Positions 2,666-9,572 of a stretch of DNA of 20,566 bases are shown in pieces. The notes beneath the pieces are model-generated. The model had not been told where the DNA came from. It searched no databases and saw only the letters and a list, made by a program, of their open reading frames with translations. Position 1 is the stretch's first letter. Each line of letters starts with the position of its first letter. The stretch is taken from positions 1 through 20,566 of IMG/VR virus record IMGVR_UViG_3300042321_001681; one strand, given 5' to 3'. Both the position numbers and the translations under genes were made by a program. This DNA comes from a virus.

Positions 2666-3136
2666 CTAGGCCGTCTGTGGCGTCGCAGGATTCTTGCGGC
2701 AATACTCAATGGCAATGGCGGTGACGCGGCGCTGCCCTGGCGTGTCGGTTTGGAGTGACAGCAGGCCAAGCCGCTCGCGGCAGTGTGCCAGTTCTGTCGC
2801 CGTCGCCGTCGCCAGCAGTTCATCGGCCCACTCCTGCCAGTCTGCGACCTCCTGTTCGGTCGGTCCCTGCTCGAGCGCATAGCGGCGCGGTTGCGGGGTC
2901 GGAACATCCGCGTAGTTCCCGCCGGTGATGCGGCAGTACGCCTTGTGGATCGCGGTCACGTCGGGGATGGTGTTGCGGTCGAATCGGTGGGATCGGATGC
3001 ACTCGCGGAGTTTGTCTTGGTCGAGGTGCAGCCATCGGCTGTTGAGAAGCGACGCCAGCTCATCGTCGGCTTTCCACTTCGGCCAGAGTCGGTGCATGAG
3101 CTTCTTGGTTTCAAGGAACGCTTCGTGGTCAGGCAT
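2666..3136 (-). CDS. Hypothetical protein in helicase-loader position
   Basis: A 156-residue protein. The first 70 residues (LMHRLWPKWKADDELASLL, then DQDKLRECIRSHRFDRNTIPDVTAI) form a helical domain. It resembles, by pattern only, the small N-terminal domain of phage helicase loader/inhibitor proteins, where a W-x-D/E-L start is followed by a helix and a 'how many residues apart to sample' segment. The C-terminal half (TEQEVADWQEWADELLATATATELAHCRERL) is also helical. It lies directly downstream of the DUF1376 replication gene on the same strand, where lambda P or DnaC-like loaders usually sit. Shine-Dalgarno AGGAG lies 8 nt before ATG 3136. The loader role is an inference from position. Confidence 0.6.
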   Translation of the reverse strand: MPDHEAFLETKKLMHRLWPKWKADDELASLLNSRWLHLDQDKLRECIRSHRFDRNTIPDVTAIHKAYCRITGGNYADVPTPQPRRYALEQGPTEQEVADWQEWADELLATATATELAHCRERLGLLSLQTDTPGQRRVTAIAIEYCRKNPATPQTA

Positions 3137-3147
3137 GGTGGGTTCTC

Positions 3148-3624
3148 CTAGAACGGGAGTGAATCATTCCCTCTCCTCCTCCCCCCCTTCCTCGAAGGGG
3201 GGGTAGGGGGGGATTGAGATATGTGACTATGACTATGACTCTGACTAGCATTGCCGTCGCTTTGCGACTGCATTGCGGTCGCATTGCGGTCGCTATGCGC
3301 TCGCTTCTCCCATGAAGCGGCCGCCGCTCGCTTCGCGTTGTCAGAGCGTGACTTACACACACCCCGGCATTCTTCGAGCCGAAGGTTCCGCATTCGGTCG
3401 CCATCGACGGCAAACTTGACGCGCACCGCATCCCAATCTTCGTCCTGCATCGGGTGTGCGCCCGCAATGCGAGCGCATTGCTCGCGCATAGCGGGTGCAT
3501 ATCCGTTCGCCCACTGGTAGGCGAGGAGCGAGATGTAAATCCCGCGCTGGGTGGCATTCATCCCGACCACGGACAGCGTCCAGTCGGCCGCATAGAACGG
3601 GAACCACGGGTAATTCGTCGCCAT
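3148..3624 (-). CDS. YdaU/DUF1376-family replication-associated protein
   Basis: A 158-residue protein beginning MATNYPWFPFYAADWTLSVVG, with MNATQRGIYISLLAYQWANG at 22-41. This is the DUF1376 (YdaU) signature of a W-x-FY-x-x-DW start and G-x-Y-x-x-LL helix. The family sits where replication initiators such as lambda O sit in many prophages. The C-terminal half is low complexity (SQSHSHSHIS, then a Pro/Gly/Arg stretch) and ends GNDSLPF, like the acidic tip of single-strand-binding protein. ATG 3624 is chosen because family members begin at MATNYPWF; it has GAGG upstream. The frame stays open to 3786, giving a Cys-rich extension that I do not believe. The C-terminal coding region contains the repeat cluster described separately. 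Confidence 0.8.
   Translation of the reverse strand: MATNYPWFPFYAADWTLSVVGMNATQRGIYISLLAYQWANGYAPAMREQCARIAGAHPMQDEDWDAVRVKFAVDGDRMRNLRLEECRGVCKSRSDNAKRAAAASWEKRAHSDRNATAMQSQSDGNASQSHSHSHISQSPPTPPSRKGGRRRGNDSLPF
3181..3203. repeat. Perfect 10-bp GC hairpin in the 3' end of the DUF1376 gene
   Basis: Seven C plus TTC, a 3-nt loop CTC, then GAA plus seven G: a perfect 10-bp stem. It lies inside the coding region (Pro/Gly/Arg-rich tail) and next to the hexamer and 11-bp repeats. No U-tract follows on either strand, so it is not a classical terminator. Confidence 0.6.
3225..3248. repeat. Four tandem hexamers (GACTAT type)
   Basis: GACTAT, GACTAT, GACTCT, GACTAG in tandem. They encode the Ser-His/Gln alternation of the DUF1376 protein on the minus strand. 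The stretch is lower in GC than its flanks and directly abuts the 11-bp repeats, the position an unwinding element would take in an iteron origin. Confidence 0.7.
3248..3302. repeat. Five tandem 11-bp repeats, candidate iterons of a replication origin
   Basis: Units start at 3248, 3259, 3270, 3281 and 3292: GCATTGCCGTC, GCTTTGCGACT, GCATTGCGGTC, GCATTGCGGTC, GCTATGCGCTC. The period is 11 bp, about one helical turn, and is not a multiple of three, so the protein sequence does not explain it. Position inside a replication-type gene parallels the lambda ori within gene O. Origin function is inferred. Confidence 0.6.
3464..3507. repeat. Second, degenerate cluster of 11-bp-phased GCAT repeats
   Basis: GCAATGCGAGC (3464), GCATTGCTCGC (3475), GCATAGCGGGT (3486) and GCATATCCGTT (3497) keep the same 11-bp phase and orientation as the cluster at 3248-3302. 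GCAATGCG/CGCATTGC also forms an 8-bp palindrome at 3464-3481. These units are less conserved and lie in a better-conserved part of the coding region. Confidence 0.4.
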
Positions 3625-7832: not shown

Positions 7833-8134
7833 CGCTCTTCGACCCCATCGAGGCCGACCGCCGCAAGGTGATCGGCAAGGCGCTCGCGGCCGACCGCCGC
7901 AGCGAACTGCTCGCCGCCGCCCGCGGGTTCGCTGCATTCATCGCACGCGACGGCGATACCGTGACGAGCGACGAGGTCGCAAACCTCATGGCCCACAATG
8001 GCCTTGACTACAACGACCTCGGAAACGCTCGTGGCAGCATCTTCGACGAGAAGTTCGTGTGGACCGGGCAGGTCGTGCCGTCGCGCCGGCCATCGTCGCA
8101 CGGTCGCCTCATTCGCGTGTGGAGGCTCCGATGA
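7829..8134 (+). CDS. Hypothetical phage protein
   Basis: A 101-residue protein starting MTLFDPIEADRRKVIGKALA. The middle (AARGFAAFIARDGDTVTSDE, then VANLMAHNGLDYNDLGNARG) and the closing SSHGRLIRVWRLR match the layout of a common class of small phage proteins that begin with FDP and end with a VWR/VWY strand, probably a winged-helix-like fold. No function is known. It is coupled at both ends by ATGA overlaps. Confidence 0.7.
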   Translation: MTLFDPIEADRRKVIGKALAADRRSELLAAARGFAAFIARDGDTVTSDEVANLMAHNGLDYNDLGNARGSIFDEKFVWTGQVVPSRRPSSHGRLIRVWRLR

Positions 8135-8463
8135 GAACCGTCGAAATCAAGATGACCCTGCACGCAGGGCTGTTTCCGCACGCGCCCGAGGTCGCCGACT
8201 ACTGCGACCGCCACGAGGTCGAGGCGTCCATCGACGCACGCTGGATGGCCGAGCAGCGCGAGGACTTCCACTACCACGGCAGCCGCGTGCGGACGATCTG
8301 GACGCTGCTTTCCTGGAACGTGGTCGCGCTGCACGTGGATGGGAAGCAGCTCCTAACCGCCGACTCGGTGCCGGAAGGATTCCCGATGCTCGAGGTGATG
8401 CGCGTACTTCAGACCGAGATCGGCGAGGACATCCGCGCCATCGGGCCGGGGGCGACGCCATGA
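8131..8463 (+). CDS. Hypothetical phage protein
   Basis: A 110-residue protein with no recognised domain. The N-terminus MRTVEIKMTLHAGLFP and the RVRTIWTLLSWNVVALHVDGKQLL segment predict beta strands; HAPEVADYCDRHEVEASIDARWMAEQREDF is helical. ATGA overlaps at both ends. It is typical high-GC sequence for this operon, in contrast to the following gene. Confidence 0.68.
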   Translation: MRTVEIKMTLHAGLFPHAPEVADYCDRHEVEASIDARWMAEQREDFHYHGSRVRTIWTLLSWNVVALHVDGKQLLTADSVPEGFPMLEVMRVLQTEIGEDIRAIGPGATP

Positions 8464-9572
8464 GATACCTGTCAGTATGCAGCGGCATTGAAGCGGCCAC
8501 CGTATGCGTGCAGGTAGATCAAACGGTCCGGGAGCTATCTTCCATGTTTGACTACGCATTCGATGGAACAAGTATTTTCACTCCACCTCAACTTCCATCT
8601 TTGCCAGCGGACTACGGAATTGGCTTGATTGTTGGTCCATCGGGAACAGGAAAGTCAACCATTCTCCGTAAATTTGGTGAAGAGCAGAAGATTGAGTGGA
8701 ATCCAGCGCTTGCAGTCTGTTCTCATTTCAAAGATGCGGTGGATGCTCGTGAGCGTTTGTCTGCAGTTGGCTTTAACTCCATTCCCGCATGGATGCGTCC
8801 ATATCACGTCCTCTCCACTGGAGAGAAGTTTCGTGCTGATTTGGCTCGACAACTACATGGCGGTGCTGTAATTGATGAGTTCACGTCCGTAGTAGACAGA
8901 ACCGTTGCCAAGTCGTGTGCTCATTCCACTCGCCGTTATGTTGATCAGAACAACATTAAGGGTTTGGTATTTGCTTCATGTCATTACGACATCATTGAAT
9001 GGCTGCGTCCAGATTGGGTGTTCGACACTAGCAGCGGTAGTTTGACCGCAAGGGGGTTTGAAAGGCGACCCGAGATTGTCTTGGAAATGCTTCCTTGCTC
9101 GACCGAAGCGTGGGCAATGTTCCGCAACCATCACTATCTCGACGGAAACATCAATAAAAGCGCACGATGCTGGATTGTTTCTTGGGACGGAACCCCAGTT
9201 GGATTCTCTTCTGCCCTTTCGTTTCCTAACGGGAATTTGAAAAACGCTTGGCGTGAACATAGGACGGTGGTGCTTCCCGACTACCAAGGTTTGGGTTTAG
9301 GAGTGCGAATCTCTGATGCCACGGCTGAATTGTTTGTGCGTCAGAGCTGTCGATACTTCTCAAAAACCGCACATCCGCGCATGGGCGAATACAGAAATCG
9401 TTCGCCGCTGTGGAAACCAACAAGCAAAAACAATCGCGCTCGGACTGATTACAACATCAGCAGATGCACCAAAGAAGATGGACATAAAATGAAACACGCA
9501 AATCGGTTGTGTTATTCGCATGAATACATCGGACGAGAAATTCCCGCTGTAGAGGAACACCATGAACGCTGA
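8460..9572 (+). CDS. ABC-type ATPase fused to GNAT acetyltransferase, with a Dcm-like N-terminal tag
   Basis: A 370-residue protein with two domains. The ABC-type ATPase has Walker A GPSGTGKS (59-66), signature LSTGEKFR (118-125), Walker B AVIDE (136-140), D-loop SVVDR (143-147) and H-loop His175. The GNAT domain runs from about 205 to 320, with acetyl-CoA motif VVLPDYQGLGLG (270-281) and family-like HHYLDGNIN, KNAWREHR and HPRM segments. This ATPase-GNAT fusion occurs in phages; a nucleic-acid-modifying role by analogy with the GNAT-fold Mom protein is inference. The first 15 residues, MRYLSVCSGIEAATV, match the start of phage cytosine-C5 methyltransferases and do not belong to this fold. 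Composition shifts sharply just after them: 20 of 60 bases are G/C at 8941-9000, against 41 of 60 at 8221-8280. ATG 8460 is coupled to the previous stop (ATGA); ATG 8544 is an alternative. Confidence 0.82.
   Translation: MRYLSVCSGIEAATVCVQVDQTVRELSSMFDYAFDGTSIFTPPQLPSLPADYGIGLIVGPSGTGKSTILRKFGEEQKIEWNPALAVCSHFKDAVDARERLSAVGFNSIPAWMRPYHVLSTGEKFRADLARQLHGGAVIDEFTSVVDRTVAKSCAHSTRRYVDQNNIKGLVFASCHYDIIEWLRPDWVFDTSSGSLTARGFERRPEIVLEMLPCSTEAWAMFRNHHYLDGNINKSARCWIVSWDGTPVGFSSALSFPNGNLKNAWREHRTVVLPDYQGLGLGVRISDATAELFVRQSCRYFSKTAHPRMGEYRNRSPLWKPTSKNNRARTDYNISRCTKEDGHKMKHANRLCYSHEYIGREIPAVEEHHER

Follow-up and report, generated by a model that had tools for sequence, protein, structure and literature searches.

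Known and probable replication origins within initiator genes

In-gene iteron origins are already known. Lambda O, SPP1 gp38 and pSK41 Rep each bind repeats within their own gene and initiate replication there (PMC7466680, PMC6316719, PMC5703833). The lambda ori lies in gene O, where tandem iterons in the initiator gene are followed by a melting tract (PMC7466680), and oriL of phage SPP1 is likewise located in gene 38, with origin repeats in the initiator gene and an unwinding element (PMC6316719). In pSK41, the winged-helix N-terminal domain of Rep, a RepA_N protein, binds boxes at the centre of its own gene, and the linker encoded by these boxes is dispensable (PMC5703833). In lambda, the next gene encodes the helicase loader. 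For the Rac prophage of E. coli, an active origin named oriJ was reported (PMC3945230); Rac encodes the DUF1376 protein YdaU and, next to it, YdaV, whose counterpart in a relative is DnaC-like.

The window analysed here is the whole stretch of 20,566 nucleotides of a 20.6-kb virus record, read as a tailed phage in our best explanation. The gene at 3148..3624 on its minus strand encodes a 158-residue protein of the DUF1376 family (PF07120; E 7.4e-8, 33.1 bits against a gathering score of 30.1), and hosts all the array elements described below, as a preliminary description of this DNA had claimed. The best-matching PHROG is annotated as 'primosomal protein' (E 1.2e-12). The DUF1376 domain was modelled as a winged helix with a pLDDT of 93.9, and the protein is a candidate winged-helix initiator. 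Its structural matches to ORC2, DnaD and a RepA_N Rep are weak and generic (Z 4.0-5.4); Z values of 4-5 speak for a generic winged helix and nothing more specific, and a Foldseek search of it against the PDB gave no match with E < 0.001. Pfam assigned DUF1376 alone to the protein, with no match to PF06970 (RepA_N domain) or PF09681 (Phage_rep_org_N). The next gene downstream (2666..3136, minus strand, 156 residues) is conserved together with the DUF1376 gene and might occupy the position of a helicase loader. No family was found for its product and the fold prediction is poor (pLDDT 63.6), so that a G39P-like loader stays a guess.

Replication of the phage genome most likely starts at the array in the DUF1376 gene. 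By analogy with the lambda, SPP1 and RepA_N systems, we consider it probable that the gene contains a replication origin bound by its own winged-helix DUF1376 initiator. The likeness to the lambda iterons within gene O, which had already been pointed out, is a good one, since in both the initiator gene contains tandem iterons and then a further tract; however, lambda has a single mid-gene iteron cluster, whereas the window has two, one of them inside the domain sequence, with cores spaced 11-12 bp apart and a tract of 5/6-bp repeats (the lambda O sequence was compared via Pfam and PHROGs only). Compared to SPP1, the window gene belongs to PF07120 rather than PF09681 and uses another core, and a second distant origin was not found; a PF09681 replisome organizer gene (L311) carries 11-bp arrays of GACWGTC. 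RepA_N structures are among the weak fold matches of the window domain (Z 4.4), but PF06970 is absent, the unit length and core differ, and the in-domain cluster has no counterpart in what the available part of PMC5703833 describes for pSK41 Rep. In the ydaU gene of E. coli K-12 (L527:4620-5477), an ACAGAT-type hexamer tract precedes C7-TAAAT-C7-G5, which resembles the window hairpin; unlike the window gene, ydaU possesses no GCAWTGC array.

Phased repeats in the DUF1376 gene

On the coding strand, the gene successively presents the in-domain cores, the end of the domain, the 11-bp units, the hexamers, the hairpin and the stop codon. The in-domain cluster (set B, 3464..3492, minus strand) lies within the coding sequence of the DNA-binding domain and consists of three cores in 11-bp phase, GCATTGC, GCAATGC and GCTATGC, at 3464, 3475 and 3486. 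Directly past the domain, set A (3248..3302, minus strand) comprises five 11-bp units starting at 3248, 3259, 3270, 3281 and 3292, each a GCAWTGC core plus N4, with the coding-strand unit GACCGCAATGC; three of the five cores are exactly GCAATGC and two have one mismatch. TRF detected a period of 11 with 5.2 copies, and the lag-11 identity of 74% is the window-wide maximum over all lags. When the window gene was shuffled synonymously with the protein fixed, none of 5000 shuffles matched the lag-11 identity of set A, and two of 5000 reached its six core pairs spaced at 11 bp. Set B is weaker than set A, its lag-11 value being reached by 1.2% of synonymous shuffles (P = 0.012).

Set A is followed by four AGTCAT-type hexamers on the coding strand (3225..3248, minus strand), which are kept in relatives. 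This tract shows no marked AT-richness and is a candidate unwinding or strand-specific element. The subsequent hairpin element, C7-TA-C7-TTC..GAA-G7 (3181..3212, minus strand), includes a second C-run beyond 3181-3203, and its single-strand folding is modest (z -1.6). A promoter/terminator scan of the window gave no signal at the array. The preliminary description had listed the five tandem units, four GACTAT-type hexamers at 3225-3248 and a hairpin at 3181-3203 in the order of iterons, hexamers and hairpin; all are present, in this order on the coding strand, and the units are borne out by their positions, TRF, the lag-11 maximum and the codon shuffles. It also placed a second phased set at 3464-3507, of which the three cores of set B stand and a fourth unit at 3497 is only marginal.

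In close relatives with proteins of 62-71% identity, the cores, hexamers (AGTCAC, AGTCAT or AGTCAG) and hairpin are kept and the encoded peptide is altered, partly due to units gained or lost; the expectation that the repeats stay in phase while the peptide drifts thus holds among relatives. A more divergent member of the same lineage with the same synteny (L141) has an initiator of 34% identity and a homologous next gene. There, GCAWTGC is absent and four copies of CCAATGG occur at 12-bp spacing, together with an ACAACC tract and the same hairpin as in the window, which indicates that the core and the initiator domain switch together. Reduced synonymous divergence at set B within the window's clade was considered and rejected, as the signal is weak and inconsistent and the numbers are too small; it is the larger gene sets that carry the case for set B.

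Selection on the DNA of related genes

Gene sets gathered by protein similarity alone comprised 24 Lin1244_N-like and 57 viral DUF1376 genes, in addition to 27 bacterial DUF1376 genes; they were drawn from the best 80 matches to one query, and the Lin1244_N query itself has a cluster within its domain. In these best-80 sets, the cores numbered 87 against 16.7 under synonymous shuffling for Lin1244_N, 135 against 30.9 for viral DUF1376 and 22 against 5.7 for bacterial DUF1376, which is about 4-5 times commoner than under shuffling in the two viral sets. The excess of core pairs at 11 bp is larger (12 vs 0.4, 22 vs 0.6 and 6 vs 0.2, respectively), and pairs at 10 or 13 bp are lacking in all three best-80 sets. 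Gaps between neighbouring cores in these sets are 11, 12, 22, 23 or 24 bp with nearly no exceptions, and the cores occupy all three codon frames in both orientations. In the Lin1244_N set, the site in the middle of a 22-bp gap matches the core at 5-6 of 7 bases, compared to 0-3 off phase; the apparent gap holds a degenerate core.

The cores sit at two places, within the domain sequence and directly past the domain, and both clusters exceed every shuffle in both viral sets. Shuffling of the two viral sets lowers the in-domain cluster from 38 to 5.7 and from 24 to 5.2, and Lin1244_N and DUF1376 homologues share its position. A tract of 5/6-bp repeats usually trails the array and is AT-rich in some families, not in all; for Lin1244_N, 70% of the genes in the set show a 5-bp period in this tract, compared to 3% of shuffles. 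Neither period, 11 or 5, is divisible by three. Among the bacterial DUF1376 genes, 3 of 27 have a GCAWTGC pair at 11 bp and most have no pairs; most bacterial DUF1376 genes are without the core, which limits the rule to a subfamily, and DUF1376 genes outside it may use other cores.

Since widely different phages have the same repeats in their related genes, it is the DNA as such for which the repeats are maintained. They are real and beyond chance, and the DNA is selected beyond the protein. The array, the selection on DNA, the phase, the co-occurrence of the elements and the winged-helix model are established by computation.

Distribution of the phased cores

A blind scan of all viral contigs for three phased GCAATGC cores at 11 bp yielded at least 120 loci. 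Among the 120 matches listed, DUF1376-like ORFs account for 93; a further 9 fall in ORFs of another kind with 150 residues or more, and the remaining 18 are non-coding. With 10-bp spacing as a control, the whole viral collection gave 8 loci, none within DUF1376-like genes, and with 12-bp spacing it gave 80 loci, 38 of them within such genes. The same pattern was found at 62 places in bacterial genomes, from hosts of several phyla, with 20 places within DUF1376-like genes. Selection by ORFs of at least 150 residues left 69 non-redundant carriers among the matches listed, in which PF07120 was assigned to 36 and PF14297 (Lin1244_N) to 19; PHROGs names the carriers as primosomal or replication-initiation proteins. 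The DUF1376 and Lin1244_N profiles are homologous (hhalign 97%). The N4 spacers differ between units in 98 of the 113 arrays within DUF1376-like genes among the matches listed, whereas 26 of the 42 bacterial arrays outside such genes are identical copies; these perfect tandem copies look like slippage and were left uncounted.

The 12-bp GCAATGC arrays in DUF1376-like genes (L212-L291) are read in differing frames, as SNAx or AMPx repeats, so that one DNA core yields different peptides. In L292-L313 (e.g. L311:103-999, L298, L297 and L310), we observed 11-bp arrays of the near-palindrome GACWGTC plus N4, encoding the peptide VTGQSRDSHGTV, in Phage_rep_org_N, DnaD-like and other initiation genes. 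GACWGTC appears to be a second core for other initiator families. GACAGTC, tried as a negative-control core, was rejected because it matched these 11-bp arrays in other initiator families.

Some phages carry the array outside the gene. In four records (L078, L099, L110 and L029), the DUF1376 gene has no cores and a phased GCAWTGC array lies in non-coding DNA of the same record; in L019, the gene has one core and two non-coding arrays are located directly downstream of it. The DUF1376 genes of L078, L099 and L110 are short as well as free of cores. In L011, L078, L099, L110 and L118, the non-coding GCAWTGC array is situated between a small cro-like HTH gene and a gene on the opposite strand. 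Another phage group (L010, L028, L054, L089, L094 and L098) has its non-coding array flanked by a terminase or methyltransferase side and by structural genes on the other side, followed in L089 by an AAAAG-type tract; no initiator gene was found on the records of this group, which are fragments.

In 3.6 Mb of loci, 25 distinct hairpins of the type C5+..C5+..G4+ were counted, and DUF1376-like ORFs, including a Rac ydaU of E. coli, contain 16 of these; as the loci were collected around DUF1376-like genes, this enrichment is suggestive only.

A putative origin and alternative explanations

From the examples of lambda O, SPP1 gp38 and pSK41 Rep, we infer that the initiator binds the repeats in the window gene, that the DNA melts and a helicase is loaded, and that the origin is active there. 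The DUF1376 initiator would bind GCAWTGC cores that recur every 11-12 bp along the same side of the helix, covering the two clusters in its own gene, one in the domain and one just past it. The bound array may wrap or bend the DNA and thereby destabilize the neighbouring 5/6-bp repeat tract, upon which the initiator could recruit a loader or helicase, whose gene is mostly downstream; the hairpin possibly aids strand entry or priming. In cultured isolates, DnaC-like, P-like or DnaB genes come after the DUF1376 gene, which corresponds to the lambda O-P order. Isolates with the array include Acinetobacter phage phiAC-1 (gp06) and Leptolyngbya phage Lbo-JY16. A count of Walker-A motifs downstream of the initiator genes (10 of 20 and 11 of 52) was too crude to be relied on.

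Some observations count against an origin. Certain arrays lie near cro-like or structural genes. The cumulative GC skew had been expected to switch near 3.2 kb; it does change there, yet in a 41-kb relative the array coincides with a local maximum rather than a minimum. This sign is wrong for a standard bidirectional origin, and the skew is uninformative. The claim of a DNA-level iteron array in an initiator gene is well sustained, by the synonymous shuffles, the phase, the codon frames, the relocation to non-coding DNA and the recurrence in unrelated phages; the earlier interpretation as a whole is partly supported.

The near-palindromic cores also resemble operator half-sites, and some arrays are intergenic beside cro-like genes, so the array might instead be autoregulatory, with a repressor or the initiator controlling the replication operon and replication beginning elsewhere. 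We regard this as unlikely: the usual array is found mid-gene, far from its promoter, with a repeat tract and in some cases also a hairpin directly behind it; moreover, no promoter-like site lies near the window array and the carriers are replication proteins. The same core in elements from hosts of many phyla could point to a host nucleoid or replication factor, rather than the phage initiator, as the binding protein. Nevertheless, the core follows the initiator family and not the host: the homologous DUF1376 and Lin1244_N domains (hhalign 97%) share GCAWTGC, whereas GACWGTC is the core in the Phage_rep_org_N and DnaD-like carriers and CCAATGG that of the divergent L141, which leaves a host factor with a very slim chance.

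Two further explanations were considered. Set A marks the transition from the DNA-binding domain to variable C-terminal parts in unrelated phages, where shared DNA might promote the recombination of initiator modules; this is highly improbable, for it explains neither the in-domain cluster and the helical phase, nor the N4 spacers, which diverge in 98 of 113 arrays among the matches listed, nor the non-coding arrays. Slippage, or selection for an 11-residue repeat in a disordered linker, could underlie the pattern in the DNA: an 11-bp DNA repeat necessarily gives an 11-residue repeat, and the perfect tandem copies outside DUF1376-like genes do resemble slippage. This explanation is already contradicted by the signal vanishing under synonymous shuffles, and it fits poorly with 12-bp arrays that encode SNAx or AMPx depending on the frame, with 22-24-bp gaps that hold the phase, and with arrays in non-coding DNA; we give it scarcely any weight.

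Returning to an in-gene origin bound by its own initiator, a broader proposal seems to us somewhat better than an even bet: DUF1376 and Lin1244_N proteins would be origin-binding initiators that obey one rule, recognition of a near-palindrome of 7 bp, centred on A/T and placed once per helical turn, and would act on a bipartite origin half-written in the codons of the domain, in phages of many bacterial phyla. With half of the origin within the domain codons, the DNA-binding fold would be partly encoded by its own binding site. As far as the literature searched shows, what is new is the assignment to DUF1376 and Lin1244_N, the phased 7-bp core across phages and the cluster in the codons of the domain. 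Titles and abstracts of the literature naming DUF1376 make no link to an origin, though a 2006 review of phage replication modules might hold related remarks; Lin1244 is unmentioned in the literature searched. If true, the proposal would give an origin-recognition function to two widespread families of unknown function, and for a great many uncultured phages and prophages the origin could be read directly from the sequence. Whether initiator and site coevolve would become testable, given the shared core in homologous domains and the switched core upon divergence. It would also be an unusually clear two-code case, in which one DNA stretch specifies both a protein and its binding site within a folded domain.

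Other features of the window

The ORF at 7998-9572 includes the first part of a phage cytosine methyltransferase (MRYLSVCSGIEAAT) and continues with an ABC-type ATPase-like part. A drop of the GC content to 49% at 8.5-9.5 kb points to a recent insertion. Between 14714 and 20565, several large minus-strand genes are of the tail-fibre or beta-helix type by appearance.
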